DNA of 64,000 nt from a virus, in IMG/VR virus record IMGVR_UViG_3300012000_000002, positions 55,040 through 119,039 of that record, one strand, 5' to 3'. The position numbers and the translations under genes are program-made. This document shows, in pieces, positions 4,887-60,833 of the stretch. How positions within the stretch are numbered: position 1 is the first letter of the stretch; each line of letters begins with the position of its first letter. The notes beneath the pieces were generated by a model. It searched no databases. It was not told the origin of the DNA and was given only the letters and a program-made list of their open reading frames with translations.

Positions 4887-7800
4887 TCAACCACCAACAA
4901 AGTTATTGCGGTTTGTTACGAAGAAGTCGATTGTGAAGAACTCTAGAGATGTGGTTGGGATTAGATAAATCTTGCCACGAAGAGTTTTGTTATCTAGATC
5001 GGCTTGTGTTGTTGTTGTTGCATCGATAACAACACGATAACGTTCAACACCACCAGCGGATTGATAACGTGCCATGATTGGTTGAACAGCAGCGTTAAAT
5101 GCTTGTAGCGTTGTTGATTGAGCTGGTTCGAACAAGAAGCGTGTTGCAACTTGACGTACATCACGACGAATTGCAATAAGCAATCTACGAACGTTTACAC
5201 GGTTAAGCAAACTGTCTTTGTTGAGAAGAGTTTTTTGACCCCACACAACTGGACCAACACCTTGTTTTGAAAGCAAAAGGTTTATTCTTGCCACATAAAG
5301 GGTGTCAGAGTTGGCTTGATTTAGTGCAACAGCAAAGTCTGTTACGTTAGCAAGTGTGCCTCTTGTAAAGCCTGCTGGTGCGTTGAATGGTTGACCAACT
5401 GTATCGTTTTTAGCATATGCACCAAGTACAGCAACAGATGGTGGTACTTTTTCATAAACAGAACCGTCGTTTGTTACAATGTTTACGTCTGGGAAATAAG
5501 TTGCTGCAAAGCTGCTGTTTACTCCACGAGTAACGAATTGTTGCGCTGTTTGTGAAACGTTAACTGCTTCATAAGAACCAGTAAGTGATGTACCATTAGA
5601 ATCATATTGTTCTGGATCCATGATGTAGAAACAGTCGAAGCGATCATTTTCTACAGCGTTGATTGCTGTATCTGTGACATAACGCACACGGATACCGGGC
5701 ATTGTAAGAAGTTGGATGTTAACATCGTTAACATCTGAGATAATTCCAATGCTCTTCAAGTAGCTTTGTACGGTTGGACCGTTTGTTAGACCACGGCTTG
5801 TTTGTGTGATTTCTTGAGCAACGGCTGCGTTTTTAAGATAACGTGTATCTGGATTAAAGATACGAGTACCATCGAAACCACGTTCTAGATAAAAGCTGAA
5901 CTTAGCCAAGCGTTGTACTGCGGCATTTTCAACAAGGTCGTTCACTGAAAGAGCTCTTGTTTTTGTTGCTTCGTCAGCGGCAATGTTTCCTGCACGAACA
6001 TAACTCCAGCTTAGAAGTGCTGCTGTGCTTGTGTTTGGTACGTCGCCGCTACCCGTTACAATCTTAACTTTTTCTAGAGAGAAAAGGTTGTTGTTAAACA
6101 AGTCTGAGTCAATGATACCGTTTGCGGTTGTGGTAGCTGCGCCATTGTTATCAAACACTGCTGGTTGCACATTTGTTGAGCCTTCAAGATTTGGATAATA
6201 CTTGCTGAATCCAAGTAAGCTTGGATTAAAGATAGAACTTCCATTTGGATCGGTAAGGCTTGTTACGTTTTGGAATTGTACACCCCAATAAAGACCTGTG
6301 TCAACACCAGAAGAAGCAGATAGCTTCTTAATGTTTAGACGCATTGGAATAGGTGGTTGCGATGCGTTGTAAAGTGGTACGCCCCCGCCAGCAAAGTATG
6401 GGAAAGCTGGGGCTAGTAAATCGCCTTGCTTGATGTTATAAAGTGAGCTTGACCCTTGTGTTACAAGGTGTTGCGGACCACGGAAACCAAAAGGCATCGC
6501 TGAAGGATCAAGTTCACCAGCGTCTACTGCATCTGCAATTTCAACACGAACATAACGAGAATTGTTTGAATAAGATCCATCTGTTGTTACTTTTTGTGAA
6601 GCTGTGTCTGTGTCGAAGTTAAAGAACGTGTTTATGTTGCCGATTTTCTTGGCAATATAGTTTGGTGAAGTTGGATCAAGTGAGCAGTTTGTAAATGTTT
6701 CCAAAGCTGCATCGTTATCGGTTGAAGTCATCGAACGAACAAGAACTGTAAACACACCATATGGTTGTGTTGCTGTTCCGGGTTGAATGTTAACGATAGA
6801 TATCTTTACCTCACCATTGCTTGCTTCACCATCTGAGAGACTGTGGAAACGGAAAAGATTTTGTGGAACTCCACCGAATCCTTGAGAAATAACCCAAGGT
6901 GAGAAAGCGTGGCCATAACGATCTTGGAAGCCTTCGAAGTTTGGTGTGATTGCTGAACCAACGTTTGATGTGTGGGTAGCGTTCGAACCAGATGAAGGAA
7001 CAAGGAACGCAATGTTTTGTTTGGTACCGTAAGCAGAGCCAGAAGAAGCCACAATAACACCAGAACCTGTTGGAACTGCAAGGGCAGAGAATACATCAAA
7101 GCTACCATAAAGCAAGTGACCAGCTTCTTCTGTTTTAAGCGGATCAGTATTCAAAACACTTGGGAAATAGTTCACGGCTTGTGGATCGAAACTTGCAGTA
7201 ATAACGTTCGGATAACGTGCATCTGTTCCTTTGTGACCATTAAGAATCATCACAAAGCTTTGTTGGCCAGAGGCAAGTTCAACTGACCCAGTAAATGCAC
7301 CACTGAATGACATTTCAGTAGCTACAAAGCTTGAAGCTGGAGCTGGTGAATTTTGTGCTGCTGATGATAGACGAAGCACAACTCCAGACGGAGCAAACAG
7401 CACACCACGAACGATTGGTACTGAGCCTGTTGAAGTTTGCAAGCCTGCATCAGAAAACACAGTAGAGCCAACTGATTCACTCATGAAGCAACCAAGCATA
7501 TACACAGAGCCGGTCACACCACCTGCGTTTGCAAACACGTTGTTTCCAAGAGCACCAGTGCTTCCACTTGGCTGTTGAGAACCAACAACGAAACCTGCAT
7601 CTGTTACAGTTCCGTTAGTATTTCGTGCTAAACCTTGACCAGCTCCAAGCACTCTTAGTTGCATGAGAGGTACACCAGTGTTACTAAACCATTCTCTCGC
7701 TGAAAGATAACCTAGTGGAGTATTTGAGTTAACACCACCAAACACTGACACATATTGTGTTAGTGTTGTTGCCATGATAGGAACAAATGCTGGTCCTTTG

Positions 7801-7904
7801 GCTGTTGTAGATATTACCAACGCAGGAACTCCTGATGGTGAGCGAGTTGTTGGTTGACTTATATCAAACTCTCTTGCTAGTACGCCGGGGCTTAATAGTG
7901 CCAT
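4887..7904 (-). CDS. Tail sheath protein, copy 1 (T4 gp18-like), 1005 aa
   Basis: The N-terminus MALLSPGVLAREFDIS followed by GPAFVPI is the usual sheath start. The C-terminal 200 residues hold the conserved sheath core (VNVRRLLIAIRRDVRQVATRFLFEP, then FTIDFFVTNRNN). At 1005 residues it is much longer than T4 gp18 (659), with extra domains in the middle, probably exposed on the sheath surface. A CGGAG ribosome site and a CTATTTATCG box lie upstream, and a terminator separates it from the second sheath gene. The two sheath genes are therefore separately transcribed. Confidence 0.9.
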   Translation of the reverse strand: MALLSPGVLAREFDISQPTTRSPSGVPALVISTTAKGPAFVPIMATTLTQYVSVFGGVNSNTPLGYLSAREWFSNTGVPLMQLRVLGAGQGLARNTNGTVTDAGFVVGSQQPSGSTGALGNNVFANAGGVTGSVYMLGCFMSESVGSTVFSDAGLQTSTGSVPIVRGVLFAPSGVVLRLSSAAQNSPAPASSFVATEMSFSGAFTGSVELASGQQSFVMILNGHKGTDARYPNVITASFDPQAVNYFPSVLNTDPLKTEEAGHLLYGSFDVFSALAVPTGSGVIVASSGSAYGTKQNIAFLVPSSGSNATHTSNVGSAITPNFEGFQDRYGHAFSPWVISQGFGGVPQNLFRFHSLSDGEASNGEVKISIVNIQPGTATQPYGVFTVLVRSMTSTDNDAALETFTNCSLDPTSPNYIAKKIGNINTFFNFDTDTASQKVTTDGSYSNNSRYVRVEIADAVDAGELDPSAMPFGFRGPQHLVTQGSSSLYNIKQGDLLAPAFPYFAGGGVPLYNASQPPIPMRLNIKKLSASSGVDTGLYWGVQFQNVTSLTDPNGSSIFNPSLLGFSKYYPNLEGSTNVQPAVFDNNGAATTTANGIIDSDLFNNNLFSLEKVKIVTGSGDVPNTSTAALLSWSYVRAGNIAADEATKTRALSVNDLVENAAVQRLAKFSFYLERGFDGTRIFNPDTRYLKNAAVAQEITQTSRGLTNGPTVQSYLKSIGIISDVNDVNIQLLTMPGIRVRYVTDTAINAVENDRFDCFYIMDPEQYDSNGTSLTGSYEAVNVSQTAQQFVTRGVNSSFAATYFPDVNIVTNDGSVYEKVPPSVAVLGAYAKNDTVGQPFNAPAGFTRGTLANVTDFAVALNQANSDTLYVARINLLLSKQGVGPVVWGQKTLLNKDSLLNRVNVRRLLIAIRRDVRQVATRFLFEPAQSTTLQAFNAAVQPIMARYQSAGGVERYRVVIDATTTTQADLDNKTLRGKIYLIPTTSLEFFTIDFFVTNRNNFVGG

Positions 7905-8018: not shown

Positions 8019-11000
8019 TCAGATAGAAACTCCGCTTGGAAGAACAACGAAATCCATTACGATGTATTCGATTGCTCTTGTTGGAAGCACTCTAATTTGA
8101 GCATTCATACGGTTGCTGTTAACGTCTTCAGCAGTATTGTTACGATCATCACAGATAATCGCAAACTGTTCAATACCTTGTTGGGCTTGAACTGTTGCAA
8201 GTACCAATGCTGCTTCGTTAACAAAACGTGTGCGAAGTGCTGGTGTGTTTTGTTCGAAGAGCAAACGGTTACCGATTGCAACAATTTGACGCTTGATTTC
8301 TAGTAACATTCTTTTAACGTTAATAGATTCCAAAGCACTTTCTGCTTGTTGCAATGTGTTTTGTGAGAAGAACACATAGTTGGCACCGGGGAACTTCACG
8401 ATTGGGTTAATGTTGGCATCGTAAAGTGTGTTGCGATCATTTTGGTTTATTCTTATTGAAGTAAGAAGTACGAAACCAAGAGAACCACGATCAAATCCTG
8501 CTGGAGCAAACCAAGGGAACTTAACACGGTCGTTATAGCTCAATGCTGAAAGAGCAGCAATAGAAGCTGGGAGTTGTACACGGCGAGTGTTAACAGTGTC
8601 TTCGATAACGATGTTGGGGAAGTATGCTGCACCACCGTTGTTATCCAATGCACGGTTTATAAACGCATTTGATGTTTTGTTGATGGAGATTGATCGATTT
8701 GATTCACCATCAAAGATACGAACATCGTCTTTGTCGTATGGTTGAAGGTCTAGAAGATAAAAACTCAAACCGTAATCTGTGTTTTTCTCTAGTGCGTAGT
8801 TTGTGATAAGTGGATCACGTTGACCGGGCGTTGCAAGAATGTTGTTGTTTGCAAGGCTTGGGTTGGTTGCAATATCAAGTGCTGTGCGATAAGCAACAAC
8901 GTTTTGGTTAGAAGCACCAACGCCAGTATAGTTGGTTGCTGATGGAGCACCGGGAGATACATAGCTTGCATTAGCAAGACCATATACACCACCAGCACCA
9001 GCTTCTGTAGATGTTGATTGATCTGTAAAGCGAGCAGCTTGTTTGTCAAAGATGTTTACACCATCCCAGCCACCTTGCATAAAGGTTGTGAATTTAGCGT
9101 AGTTAGAGAAGTTGTTAAACTGAACTGCGCTGCTGCTGTTAACCAACGAAGCAAAAGTAATACGGTTGCTGTAGTTTGTTGCAACGTATGTTGTTGGATC
9201 GATTGTTGCGTTACGAAGATATGCAGCAGACTTCATAAGTGTTAGAATATCTGTTGAAGCTACCGTTGTCATTGAAGTTTCGTTTAGCGCAACATTTGCA
9301 AGGGTGAACTTGTTGTTGTTCAAAAGATCGCTTGCTGAACCAGTTGTAAGCACACCTAGTTTTTCAATGCCAGCAAATTTAGAAAAGTTTGCAACAATTG
9401 GGTTAATCGCTGCATTAACGTTAACGTTTAGAACGTCATTGTTGTTTCGTTCTAGTTTAACGCCCCAATACAATCTTCCGTCTACAACTGTTTGAGCACC
9501 GGGAGCACCAAACACTGTACCAGAAGCAGTTAGTGGGTTGCGTGTAACTGTAAATCGATATGGAACAGGTGGAACAATTGATCCAGATAGCAAAGCACCA
9601 TTTGGAACTGTGCTTGAAGATACACCACTTATTCTTGCAAGTGTTGGCAAACCACCTTGATCGCTCAAAGCTACGTTTGTCAAAAGCATTTGGTGACCAC
9701 GGAAACCGAATGGAAGAGCTAGTTCTGGCACTTCGTCGTTTTCAAGTTGTGAGCTTGGAACCACACGAATAAATCTGCTGCGATTACCGTATTTTCCTTC
9801 AACTACAACACCACGGTCTTCTGCTTCAACTTGATCAAAATCAAACTTGGTGCGTTTATCACCAATAACTCTTGCAATATATTGGCTGCTTTTTGGATCA
9901 AGTGATAGGTTGTTAAATTGTTCTAGAATTTGTGGTTGTTCGTCGGTGTCATTGAACGCTCTAACAGACAAAGTAAATGAACCATATTTTGATGATGGAT
10001 TTGTTGATGCCAACAAGTTTGAAATGCTGATTTTATACTTGCTGTTTGCATATTCACCGTCATCACGGCTTTCTACATAAAATAGATCATACTCGATTCC
10101 ACCAAAAGGTTGTGAAACAAAGTATGGAGTTTTTGGTGCTGTATAACGTGTGTTAAAGTAACCAAATACTTCACTGTATTCAAGACCAAGTGAGTTTGTG
10201 TTGGCAGATCCAGAAAGAACCGCAACGGTTGGAACAGTGTTGCTAGCGGAAAGAGTTGCAACTTGTGCATCTACAGCATAATCAAGATAAAGAAGATGTT
10301 TTTTTGTTGCAAAGTTTTCTGGGTTTGTGTTTAAGATTTTTCCAACGTATTGATCTGAGTCTGGATCGAATGATGCTGAGAAGATTTGAAGACCTGCAAC
10401 ACCATCATCGGAAGAAAATGAAGAACCAGCAGAGCAAGAAAGAACTAGTTTAAACATTCCTTGCATTGGTCCAGTTGTACCAACTTGTGCTGCTTCGTAT
10501 GTGCCGCTTCCTCCAAATGCAGCAGTTGGATCATAAACACCACCAGAATCTACTGCACCACTTAAAACAAGAAAGCGTGAATCCGGTGCAGTGAATAGAA
10601 CAGCACGAACAAGATTTACACTATCATTGTCTGGTGTAAAGCCGCTAACGTTATAGCTGTTGTTGTTGGTAAACATTGGATATCCAAACACTTCGTTGTT
10701 TTGTACAAAGTGCTTACCAACCAAGAATTGTACACGGCCTTGCAACGCACCAGAAACGAATACTGTTCCGTTACCGACAACTTGCATACCGGCGTTTGTA
10801 ACAGTGCCGCTAACTTGTGTTTGTGTTATATCAATTGAACTACTATTGGCACCACAACCAAGAACACGAATGTAGTTAACTGAAGCTAGCTCAGTGCCTT
10901 TTGCTTCTAGAAATTTTTGTACACCATATGTACCAACATATTTCGAGTTTACTGGTCCAAACTTGTTTGAAAAATCTGTGTAACTTCCAAGGGTTATTGG

Positions 11001-11129
11001 CACAAAGGCTGGGCCTTTTTCTGCACCACCAATAATGGTTGCTGGCGTTCCACCAACAGGGATTGTACGTTCGGTTAAGTCGAACTCTCTATCGAAATAA
11101 TTGGGGGCTTTTAATACTGTTTCTGGCAT
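8019..11129 (-). CDS. Tail sheath protein, copy 2 (T4 gp18-like), 1036 aa
   Basis: The start is the ATG with GAGGATAA upstream; a GTG four codons earlier would place the ribosome site inside the gene. The N-terminus (APNYFDREFDLT, GGAEKGPAFVPIT) and the C-terminus (INVKRMLLEIKRQIVAIGNRLLFEQ, YIVMDFVVLP) align by eye with copy 1, so the two are paralogues of similar size but clearly diverged. Either the sheath is a heteropolymer or the copies serve different positions or life stages. It has its own upstream CTATTTATG box. Confidence 0.9.
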   Translation of the reverse strand: MPETVLKAPNYFDREFDLTERTIPVGGTPATIIGGAEKGPAFVPITLGSYTDFSNKFGPVNSKYVGTYGVQKFLEAKGTELASVNYIRVLGCGANSSSIDITQTQVSGTVTNAGMQVVGNGTVFVSGALQGRVQFLVGKHFVQNNEVFGYPMFTNNNSYNVSGFTPDNDSVNLVRAVLFTAPDSRFLVLSGAVDSGGVYDPTAAFGGSGTYEAAQVGTTGPMQGMFKLVLSCSAGSSFSSDDGVAGLQIFSASFDPDSDQYVGKILNTNPENFATKKHLLYLDYAVDAQVATLSASNTVPTVAVLSGSANTNSLGLEYSEVFGYFNTRYTAPKTPYFVSQPFGGIEYDLFYVESRDDGEYANSKYKISISNLLASTNPSSKYGSFTLSVRAFNDTDEQPQILEQFNNLSLDPKSSQYIARVIGDKRTKFDFDQVEAEDRGVVVEGKYGNRSRFIRVVPSSQLENDEVPELALPFGFRGHQMLLTNVALSDQGGLPTLARISGVSSSTVPNGALLSGSIVPPVPYRFTVTRNPLTASGTVFGAPGAQTVVDGRLYWGVKLERNNNDVLNVNVNAAINPIVANFSKFAGIEKLGVLTTGSASDLLNNNKFTLANVALNETSMTTVASTDILTLMKSAAYLRNATIDPTTYVATNYSNRITFASLVNSSSAVQFNNFSNYAKFTTFMQGGWDGVNIFDKQAARFTDQSTSTEAGAGGVYGLANASYVSPGAPSATNYTGVGASNQNVVAYRTALDIATNPSLANNNILATPGQRDPLITNYALEKNTDYGLSFYLLDLQPYDKDDVRIFDGESNRSISINKTSNAFINRALDNNGGAAYFPNIVIEDTVNTRRVQLPASIAALSALSYNDRVKFPWFAPAGFDRGSLGFVLLTSIRINQNDRNTLYDANINPIVKFPGANYVFFSQNTLQQAESALESINVKRMLLEIKRQIVAIGNRLLFEQNTPALRTRFVNEAALVLATVQAQQGIEQFAIICDDRNNTAEDVNSNRMNAQIRVLPTRAIEYIVMDFVVLPSGVSI

Positions 11130-11209
11130 ATTTATCCTCACTTTACAGTTAGTTAAAGTTCTACGGCATAAATAGAGACAAGAAACCGGTTTACCTTAAA
11201 GAACCAAAG

Positions 11210-48773: not shown

Positions 48774-49199
48774 ATGAGTTATACTGATTGGAACAATTAT
48801 CTAACAACATTAAAGCAACACTGTGTTAACAACAACATTGAAGTTGTTTTCAAGCGTGGTTGCCAAGACGCTTACACTGTAGAAACTCAACTGATCGAAA
48901 TTAACAGCAACCGAACAAAGCAAAATCAAGTTTATATTTTGCTTCACGAAATCGGGCATCACAAAGTTGTTAACAACAAAAAGCTTGCAAAAAAGTTTGC
49001 ATCATTGAATCAACCATATTCTCGTAACTTGTCCAACAAGATTTTAAATCTTGAGGAAGAAGTTATGGCATGGCATTATGGAGAAAATCTTGCGGCAGAA
49101 CTTGGAATTGAACTTGACTCAAAATACCAAGTGCTTAAAGCAAAATGTTTGAAAACTTATATTGAATCAATCAGTTCAAAGAAAAGGAATCAACAATGA
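48774..49199 (+). CDS. Putative zinc metallopeptidase (ImmA/IrrE-like), 141 aa
   Basis: The HExxH-type motif is LLHEIGHHKV (His58, Glu59, His62). A downstream Glu pair is LEEEVMAWHYGE (about 104-115), which could give the third ligand. This order and size match the ImmA/IrrE (DUF955) domain. Family members cleave regulators or act as inactive scaffolds. It overlaps the sigma factor gene by 4 nt, so it may act on transcription proteins; this is inference. Confidence 0.65.
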   Translation: MSYTDWNNYLTTLKQHCVNNNIEVVFKRGCQDAYTVETQLIEINSNRTKQNQVYILLHEIGHHKVVNNKKLAKKFASLNQPYSRNLSNKILNLEEEVMAWHYGENLAAELGIELDSKYQVLKAKCLKTYIESISSKKRNQQ

Positions 49200-49924
49200 A
49201 AACAAATCAAAGCGAAGAAGACATTGAATTATTCAAACGTTATCAAGAAACAAAAATCCTAGACGAAAATGGAAAAGTTCTAAGAGCTGATGTAAAGCTA
49301 CGCAATGATTTAGCTGAACGAAACGCAAAGCTTGTAACGTTTGTTATCAACAAGTTTTATAGCAAAAAGCAACGTCATAAGGAACTAAGAAACGATTTAC
49401 TTCAAGAAGGTCATCTTGGCTTGTTTGATGCTATTGATGGATTCAAACCCGAACTAGGGTTTAAGTTTTCAACATATGCAACTTGGTGGATTCGACAAAG
49501 TGTAAACTCATATCTTTTGGATGAAGAACCAATGCTTCATATTCCCAGCCATATCAGAACAGCAAGAAACAAGTTGTTTAATCTGGCAAAGGAACGTTCG
49601 ATTGCGTTTAAAGACATTGGCAAAGACATGTTAGAAGAACTTAACATGACAGAAAAGATGTTTGCTTCTGTTACAGCGGCAGTAAAAACAAAGTCATGGA
49701 ACGTTCAATCAATTGATGAACCTTTATCGTCCAGCATGGATAGAACACTACGAGATGTAATTCCTAGCAACGATGTTGAGTTGTCAACATCAGTTGACAA
49801 CAAGCGTATTCTTATTGCTGCCAAAGAAGCGTTTGCTAAATTGTCATTAAGAGAGAAATGTGTTTTGTTGGAACGATATGGTATTGATTGCAGTCAAATT
49901 CTTAAGAAGGAAGGTGAGAAATGA
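49196..49924 (+). CDS. Sigma70-family factor ending after region 4.1, 242 aa
   Basis: Region 2 is well kept: LLQEGHLGLFDAIDGFKPELGFKFSTYATWWIRQSVNSYL (about 67-106). The WWIRQS block melts and reads the -10. A region 3-like part follows (HIPSHIRTARNKL), then region 4.1 (FAKLSLREKCVLLERYGID) at the very end. The region 4.2 helix-turn-helix that reads the -35 is absent. T4 gp55 is likewise a sigma without this part. The next gene, overlapping by 4 nt, encodes a separate helix-turn-helix resembling region 4.2. Confidence 0.85.
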   Translation: MKTNQSEEDIELFKRYQETKILDENGKVLRADVKLRNDLAERNAKLVTFVINKFYSKKQRHKELRNDLLQEGHLGLFDAIDGFKPELGFKFSTYATWWIRQSVNSYLLDEEPMLHIPSHIRTARNKLFNLAKERSIAFKDIGKDMLEELNMTEKMFASVTAAVKTKSWNVQSIDEPLSSSMDRTLRDVIPSNDVELSTSVDNKRILIAAKEAFAKLSLREKCVLLERYGIDCSQILKKEGEK

Positions 49925-50202
49925 ATCAGAAGTATATAACTATCGAAGAAGGTGAAGACTATCGCACCATTGCGGCAAAGATGACAACATTAGGATATAA
50001 AATGAATCATGCAACAGCAAGAAACATTCTTTTATCTGGGATGTATAAGTTCATGCAACATATGTCTGAATCTCTTGGTAAACCGCTATCAGAAGAGGAA
50101 TGCACAACCTTGGTAATGCGGCAAGACATTCATGAAGTATTGGGTGATATTCTTCCTCTTTGTGCAACAGAGGAAACAACATTATGCCCGGTGGAAAAAT
50201 AA
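49921..50202 (+). CDS. Helix-turn-helix protein resembling sigma region 4.2, 93 aa
   Basis: Residues about 13-44 (DYRTIAAKMTTLGYKMNHATARNILLSGMYKF) fit the sigma 4.2 pattern: a first helix, a turn, and a recognition helix ending in the aromatic/basic tail. It starts by ATGA overlap at the exact point where the preceding sigma factor lacks this domain. The C-terminal half is acidic. By analogy with T4 gp33, it may supply the missing contact with the polymerase flap or with DNA. The function is inferred. Confidence 0.6.
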   Translation: MNQKYITIEEGEDYRTIAAKMTTLGYKMNHATARNILLSGMYKFMQHMSESLGKPLSEEECTTLVMRQDIHEVLGDILPLCATEETTLCPVEK

Positions 50203-50597
50203 CAATAAAGTCTGATATTCCTGATTTCGAAAGCTTTCTTGCACGCAAACGTTATCCTTTAGATAAATGGTTGCTTGCTAATAACATCACTTCTTTAGAA
50301 GCGTTTAAAAGCCTATTAAATTCCGGTCAATGGGTTATGAGCGAAGCCATTGTTAAATCCGTTGAAGAGCTTTTAAAGCCTGTTCCTACGCCAGCAAAAG
50401 CCATTGCACCAGTTGTTGTTGAAGAACCTGTGCAAGTTGTGATGGCTGCGGTAGAAGAACCAAAAGTTGAAACACAAGTTGTCCTCAATGGTGAGGATTC
50501 TGTGGTTTCTTCTATAGAAGAAGTTGTTCCACATGTTGTGGAAGAACCTTCTTTAGTTTCAGTTAATTCTTACAAAGAAAGAAAAAAGTCAAGGTAG
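50184..50597 (+). CDS. Hypothetical protein, 137 aa
   Basis: The start is MPGGKITIKSD, with AGAGGA 9 nt upstream inside the previous gene. The N-terminal 60 residues look folded (FESFLARKRYPLDKWLLANNITSLEAFKSLLNSG). The rest is a Val/Glu/Pro-rich tail ending in Lys and Arg. No family is recognised. It is in the sigma factor operon. Confidence 0.55.
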   Translation: MPGGKITIKSDIPDFESFLARKRYPLDKWLLANNITSLEAFKSLLNSGQWVMSEAIVKSVEELLKPVPTPAKAIAPVVVEEPVQVVMAAVEEPKVETQVVLNGEDSVVSSIEEVVPHVVEEPSLVSVNSYKERKKSR

Positions 50598-59636: not shown

Positions 59637-59754
59637 CAAAGACCCTTGTTGGGTTCTTTTCTATGACTGTTACGGTATCTATGATACATCTTTGATTCGA
59701 TTGCTATGGACGGCAATCAAAGAATACAAAGATGATCGTCACCTTGTTGGATGA
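59563..59754 (+). CDS. Hypothetical protein, 63 aa
   Basis: Not recognised. It is aromatic-rich (STRWFMLFQEAPGVISKDPCWVLFYDCYGIYDTSLIRLLW). AAAAGG lies 6 nt before the ATG, a good ribosome site, within the preceding gene (74-nt overlap in the +1 frame). It overlaps the RNA ligase frame by ATGA at its stop. Confidence 0.55.
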   Translation: MSHKHKYMISTRWFMLFQEAPGVISKDPCWVLFYDCYGIYDTSLIRLLWTAIKEYKDDRHLVG

Positions 59755-59762
59755 TAAAAATC

Positions 59763-60833
59763 ATGAGCACACACGAAGTAAAAGTTGTTCGCATCGAATC
59801 TATTCACTCTCATCCAAATGCTGATTCTCTTGAACTAACAAACATTTGGGGTTACCAATGTGTTATCCGTAAAGGAGCACATAAAGTTGGTGATCTAATG
59901 GCTTATATTGAGCCAGATTATAAGATTAACATTACTCGAAATGAGTTTCGTTTTCTTGATGATGGGAAGGGTAAGGAATGGCAACGTATTACTATGAGAA
60001 GGTTCCGTGGAGAGCCTTCTTATGGACTGCTTATCCCGGCTCCACAAGGCTCTGTAGAGGGCGATAATGTCATAGAGCTACTTGGAGTCGAACGATATGA
60101 ACCACCGGCTCCAAAAGGCTCTGGGATGCCTTCCGGCATCCAAGTTTCTGGACCTAATATTCCTGTTCCCCATTACGATCTTGAAAACTTTAAGAAGTAT
60201 CATACCCTTTTTAATGAAGGAGAGAATGTGATTCTTACCGAAAAAGTTCATGGCACAAATGCTCGTTATGTGTTTCATAACGGTGAAATGTACTGTGGAT
60301 CAAGAACCACATGGAAGATGAAGCCGGGAACTCATGTAAAAGACGTTACATGGACTGATGAAAATGGCATTGAAGTAATCAAAATTATCTCAGCCCCAGA
60401 GTGTGTATGGTGGACTGTACTAAACCAAAATCCTTGGATTGAGGAATGGTGCAAGAATCACCCAGATGTAGTTCTATATGGAGAGGTATACGGACCAAAT
60501 GTTCAAGGTGGTAATTTCCATTATGGAAAAAATCAAGGCAAGTATGGATTCGCAGTCTTTGATGTACTGGATCATGGTCGTTGGATTGACAATGCTGAGT
60601 TATTTGACAATCCTGTTTATGCTAGTGGTTTACACGAAACTGTAAAAGTTCTTTATCGTGGACCACTAGATAGCGGTTTGCTAGCAAAGCTTGCAGAAGA
60701 AGATAGTGCTTACCCTAATCAGAAAATTAGAGAAGGTATTGTGGTTAAGCTCGACCGAGGAGAACGTTATGATCCTCGACACGGTAGAGTTGCACTCAAA
60801 TATGTTTCAGATCAATACTTGATGAAAAGTTAA
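59763..60833 (+). CDS. RNA ligase (Rnl2/DRB0094-like), 356 aa
   Basis: An N-terminal OB-like domain (STHEVKVVRIESIHSHPNADSLEL, about 1-110) precedes the nucleotidyltransferase core. Motif I is LTEKVHGTNARYVF, with the likely adenylated Lys161. Motif III/IIIa is VVLYGEVYGPNVQGG, motif IV is REGIVVKL and motif V is VALKYVS. It seals nicks or breaks in RNA, for example tRNAs cut by host defence. I start at MSTHEVK; an ATG four codons earlier overlaps the previous stop. It converges on the head-type gene. Confidence 0.85.
   Translation: MSTHEVKVVRIESIHSHPNADSLELTNIWGYQCVIRKGAHKVGDLMAYIEPDYKINITRNEFRFLDDGKGKEWQRITMRRFRGEPSYGLLIPAPQGSVEGDNVIELLGVERYEPPAPKGSGMPSGIQVSGPNIPVPHYDLENFKKYHTLFNEGENVILTEKVHGTNARYVFHNGEMYCGSRTTWKMKPGTHVKDVTWTDENGIEVIKIISAPECVWWTVLNQNPWIEEWCKNHPDVVLYGEVYGPNVQGGNFHYGKNQGKYGFAVFDVLDHGRWIDNAELFDNPVYASGLHETVKVLYRGPLDSGLLAKLAEEDSAYPNQKIREGIVVKLDRGERYDPRHGRVALKYVSDQYLMKS

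Follow-up and report, generated by a model that had tools for sequence, protein, structure and literature searches.

Sigma factors made of two polypeptides are rare, and the known examples are either broken between domains or work with an unrelated partner. In a review of phage T4 late transcription, gp55 and gp33 are termed a split sigma, and gp33 is said to lack sequence similarity to sigma factors (PMC2988020). Gp55 is missing the whole of domain 4, the two genes are far apart in T4, and both proteins end in a sliding-clamp motif. In Bacillus subtilis, the SigO and RsoA proteins together form one sigma factor, with the break located between domain 2 and domain 4 (PMC8103513, PMC10028694). 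The Bacillus phage SPO1 encodes a sigma factor, gp34, and an accessory protein of approximately 100 amino acids, gp33, in genes that overlap by 4 bp. RpoD-like phage sigma factors belonging to PHROG 351, for example those of Vibrio phage 2.275.O and, judged by sequence, of Kyanoviridae cyanophages, retain region 4.2 within the sigma polypeptide and have no accompanying small gene. Gp33-type helix-turn-helix proteins beside sigma factors also figure in a survey of jumbo phages (PMC7824862); the open-access excerpts of that survey contain no description of the gene pair considered here.

The window analyzed in this study covers the final 64 kb of IMGVR_UViG_3300012000_000002, an IMG/VR virus record of 119,039 bases that carries genes for tail sheath, portal, major head protein and terminase. 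The window includes a tandem pair of tail-sheath genes encoding proteins of ~1000 amino acids each (4887-7904 and 8019-11141), a phage GroEL (32195-33925) and an RNA ligase (59751-60833). The operon of interest lies on the plus strand. Its upstream gene (48774-49199, 141 amino acids) has a weak metallo-protease match (PHROG 87, E 1e-6) and shares an ATGA overlap with a sigma factor gene (49196-49924, 242 amino acids). As the initial annotation described, the sigma gene overlaps in turn with a gene for a protein of 93 amino acids (49921-50202) through a second ATGA (49921-49924). A purine-rich ribosome binding site for the small gene, AAGGAAGGTGAG, is located within the sigma gene (49907-49918). 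A third gene (50184-50597, ATG start, 137 amino acids) follows.

The two overlapping genes probably encode a single sigma factor in two polypeptides, the product of an old split, in which the small one supplies the helix-turn-helix that reads the -35 element on the host polymerase. The two genes would be translated together from one operon, as separate proteins. The 242-amino acid subunit, with regions 2, 3 and 4.1, would dock on the core of the host RNA polymerase and open the -10 element, and the 93-amino acid subunit would provide a helix-turn-helix in place of region 4.2, placed close to the beta flap, where it would read the DNA around -35. Four records, possibly incomplete, were searched for a phage RNA polymerase beta subunit and none was detected; therefore, the split sigma probably uses the RNA polymerase of the host.

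The larger protein is a primary-type sigma factor, and it has orthologues. It matches Pfam Sigma70_r2 (PF04542, 4.5e-12; residues 39-109, window 49310-49522) and PHROG 351 'RNA polymerase sigma factor' (3.9e-40), and its predicted fold matches solved sigmaS and sigmaA structures (E 4e-10). By sequence and by fold, the PHROG 351 phage sigmas are its closest known relatives. The initial annotation placed the end of this protein directly after region 4.1, and this is borne out. Region 4.1 (LSLREKCVLLERYGID, 49838-49885) occurs together with regions 2 and 3 in one chain, which stops at most 12 residues later and does not contain a complete region 4. The last helices of the model, 196-215 and 218-227, correspond to region 4.1 and a short tail. 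Also, the Pfam Sigma70_r4 matches in the sigma reading frames of three relatives cover only the first 18-20 of its 50 positions. Thus, unlike SigO-RsoA, the break is inside domain 4, between 4.1 and 4.2.

SPO1 gp34/gp33 resembles the pair in combining a phage sigma with a small accessory gene, but the SPO1 gene order is reversed, and SPO1 gp33 matches its own Pfam family, PF25742, whereas the 93-amino acid protein does not. Moreover, the weak region 4 match of gp34 runs into region 4.2, so its region 4 is apparently unsplit. We therefore rejected SPO1 as an instance of the same system, since its gene pair has the 4-bp overlap in common with that of the window but lacks the split.

The 93-amino acid protein has no Pfam match at E<=5 and no PHROG match, and its best match among viral models is an unnamed protein of an uncultured phage. 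An AlphaFold2 model built on an alignment of 72 relatives is confident (pLDDT 85) and predicts a helix at residues 14-23, a six-residue turn, a helix at 30-51 with a conserved MNH.TARN pattern (together 49960-50073) and two further helices. This model and the conserved residues agree with the initial annotation's impression of a helix-turn-helix, here with a long predicted turn, ~5 residues longer than that of sigma factors. When aligned by hand to sigma70, the conserved residues N29, H30, R34 and N35 correspond to T583, R584, R588 and Q589, which are established -35 contacts or lie next to them; K43 corresponds to K597, and I17-A18 to V576-G577. The invariance of the conserved motif arises partly from selection, because residues 28-35 belonged to the search pattern. 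The protein in the window is acidic (pI 5.1), and the core of its family is basic (median pI 9.7).

The initial annotation also held that the second gene fits region 4.2. Its register and its model conform to this description, but homology is statistically insecure. Comparison of the small-family profile with a region 4 alignment of 11 rows aligned the expected helices, yet 14 of 200 column shuffles scored as high, and a reversed region 4 profile slightly outscored the real one. With region 4.2 alone, five of 100 shuffles were as good. A Foldseek search of the PDB with the model gave no match, Pfam Sigma70_r4_2 was matched by only two of the 72 family members (E 0.16 or worse), and searches of Pfam, NCBIfam, the PDB and PHROG with the family gave only scattered weak matches. 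The small protein represents a new family, whose known members all come from uncultured phages. That it functionally replaces region 4.2 is well supported, and its descent from region 4.2 is no more than suggested. A true region 4.2 (GPHTLQKIGQIYGLTRMRICQIEK; Sigma70_r4 positions 20-49) standing alone was observed in one other phage, where it ends a reading frame of 93 amino acids (L182, 1321-1602; match G003:19575-19664) far from that phage's split sigma, with no region 4.1 in other frames just upstream.

Because neither sequence nor fold comparison gave a significant match to region 4, there is room for a second explanation, in which the small protein binds the flap as a coactivator that is unrelated to region 4 and does not read the -35 element, but bridges to another factor or blocks unspecific DNA binding. 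T4 gp33 sets a precedent, in that it binds the flap tip and has been called a mimic of sigma4 although its sequence is not similar to that of sigma factors (PMC2988020), and the extra C-terminal helices of the 93-amino acid model could be accommodated by such a role. However, the model is that of a helix-turn-helix with conserved polar residues where the second helix begins, there is a candidate class of promoters that includes a -35-like box, the protein has no clamp-binding tail, and the small family shows no likeness to gp33 proteins (in hhalign, 27 of 100 shuffles aligned as well). We consider this explanation unlikely.

Resemblance to T4 gp55/gp33, which the initial annotation had proposed, holds for function only: in both cases a sigma factor without its -35-reading domain is paired with a small separate partner, and both partners act on the host RNA polymerase, as predicted for the pair in the window. 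The sigma factors belong to different families, because T4 gp55 matches PHROG 234, which the 242-amino acid protein does not match. The gp33 family (PHROG 254, Pfam Trans_coact) was not found in the record containing the window or in four larger relatives (G000-G004). Orthology was rejected on the PHROG assignment, the absence of gp33 from these five records and the hhalign shuffles. The T4 proteins terminate in LDFLL and LDFLYEAND, whereas neither protein of the window has an LDFL tail. Also, the break in the window follows region 4.1 instead of removing all of domain 4, and the genes overlap instead of being far apart.

The split is strongly supported by its distribution. Non-redundant sigma reading frames from viral contigs and phage records were sorted by two features, a region 4.2 on the sigma polypeptide itself and a small gene at the locus. 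Among 127 assignable frames, 100 lack region 4.2 and are accompanied by the small gene, 27 have an intact region 4.2 and no small gene, and none has both (Fisher p 3e-28, a value that ignores shared ancestry and is inflated by relatedness). Three further entries of the sigma set are outside these 127: a non-sigma match (L210), a fragment at a contig edge (L277) and Escherichia phage EJP2, whose region 4.2 match is very weak (L089). The same pattern holds for loci retrieved by the sigma factor alone, where 73 sigmas without region 4.2 have the small gene and 18 with region 4.2 do not, with no exceptions apart from one non-sigma match and one contig-edge fragment. Conversely, a search with the small-protein profile retrieved 91 loci. 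Among the 80 that were retained, 79 have a sigma lacking region 4.2 directly upstream on the same strand. The sole exception, L120, is on a contig of 38.6 kb that yielded no sigma. This all-or-none association strongly supports the initial annotation's view of one sigma divided over two genes. No natural fusion of sigma and small protein, for which the initial annotation had proposed a search, occurs among the analyzed loci.

IMG/VR relatives of the gene pair at 73-100% identity have the same layout, including those at 84-87%, and relatives with only 30-45% identity in the sigma factor also retain the pair. The gap between the sigma and small reading frames is at most 50 nucleotides in 91 of 100 loci, and spacing ranges from overlap to about 1 kb, with 0.4-1 kb in a few loci. 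This variation implies two distinct proteins rather than a frameshift product. In two loci, a reading frame that may encode a GIY-YIG homing endonuclease is found between the sigma gene and the small gene (L010, 6078-6704; L011, 5675-6367), which may offer a clue to the way in which a sigma of this kind comes to be split.

These inserts also indicate that the sigma and small genes can be separated without loss, as might be expected if the small protein were simply a fellow traveller of the sigma that regulates it, either as an anti-sigma factor or as an autorepressor of the operon. Small co-transcribed regulators beside sigma genes are common. However, the small protein accompanies every sigma that lacks region 4.2 and none that has it, a pattern not anticipated for a regulator, and this explanation is very improbable. 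We give almost no credence to an artefact, in which a sequencing error or recent frameshift broke a normal sigma gene or the small reading frame arose by chance: although the two frames overlap in neighbouring phases, both are preserved with approximately 100 different sigma sequences found across many metagenomes, and the conserved arrangement, varied spacing and intervening genes rule it out.

A phylogenetic tree of the sigma factors allows all split ones to share one origin (p-AU 0.57; the tree that holds them together is better by 2.27 log units). The independent evidence therefore amounts to one old event that has been kept without exception, not 100 events. The picture is of an old split that probably arose once and was passed on within a wide range of large uncultured phages. 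Every genome with the pair is metagenomic and possibly partial. Searches with the members that were tried found neither the small gene nor the third gene of the operon in cultured phages, and the only genome contigs obtained were two MAG contigs.

This third gene represents another new family, which the initial annotation missed. It occurs downstream of the small gene in 86 of 104 loci and is a possible third member of the system. Its products have a head with the motif F..RR....SYE.L...V.PP and a low-complexity tail that is charged or proline-rich. No match of weight was found in Pfam (seven members scanned), the PDB or PHROG. Comparison with T4 gp33 gives a collinear but weak alignment (two of 100 shuffles as good) that is supported by neither PHROG nor the PDB, so this possible likeness is a lead and not a finding.

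A candidate promoter was recognized in G001, the closest of the large relatives. Across seven stretches of 20 kb (L283-L289), and allowing no more than one mismatch, TTTAGA-N14-TGATAT is present 24 times, versus 0-5 times at other spacings. In the phage of the window (G000) the signal is weaker, with six occurrences versus 0-4. The form TTTAGA-N14-TGATATTCT is often positioned 9 nucleotides before the start of a reading frame, for example in the window's phage at L281 5110 and L282 13120. On sequence grounds, it can be read as a putative bipartite promoter with a -35 box TTTAGA, 17 bp and an extended -10 element TGATATTCT, which departs from the sigma70 consensus at fixed places. Such a promoter fits a sigma factor of altered specificity, and it could also be read by a host sigma. 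It was not found at the structural genes in the window, and no promoter of fixed spacing was seen in two more distant relatives (G002, G004). Several genes on the structural side have a CTATTTA-like box, located upstream of 7904, 11141, 16550, 18961 and 48692 (minus strand). This box is found in six regions of the phage versus 1.4 expected, and is not enriched in G001.

Returning to the two-polypeptide sigma, we infer that the 93-amino acid protein binds the sigma subunit and the flap, reads the -35 element and descends from region 4.2. A more elaborate history is a tentative proposal, with perhaps a modest chance of being correct: a single ancient split within domain 4 was followed by reshaping of the -35 half into an independent protein that gained two helices and a longer turn, the protein of the third gene joined as a subunit, and the resulting multi-part sigma reads the phage-specific sequence TTTAGA-N17-TATTCT.

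The novelty of this system is a break within domain 4 that is common to approximately 100 distinct sigma sequences of uncultured large phages. The analysis also gives a likely role to an otherwise unannotated family of small proteins, and a direct test is possible. If the small subunit reads the -35 element, recognition of the -10 and the -35 elements can vary in these phages on two different polypeptides, and the pair would be a natural model for how a T4-like sigma and coactivator might arise from an ordinary sigma factor.
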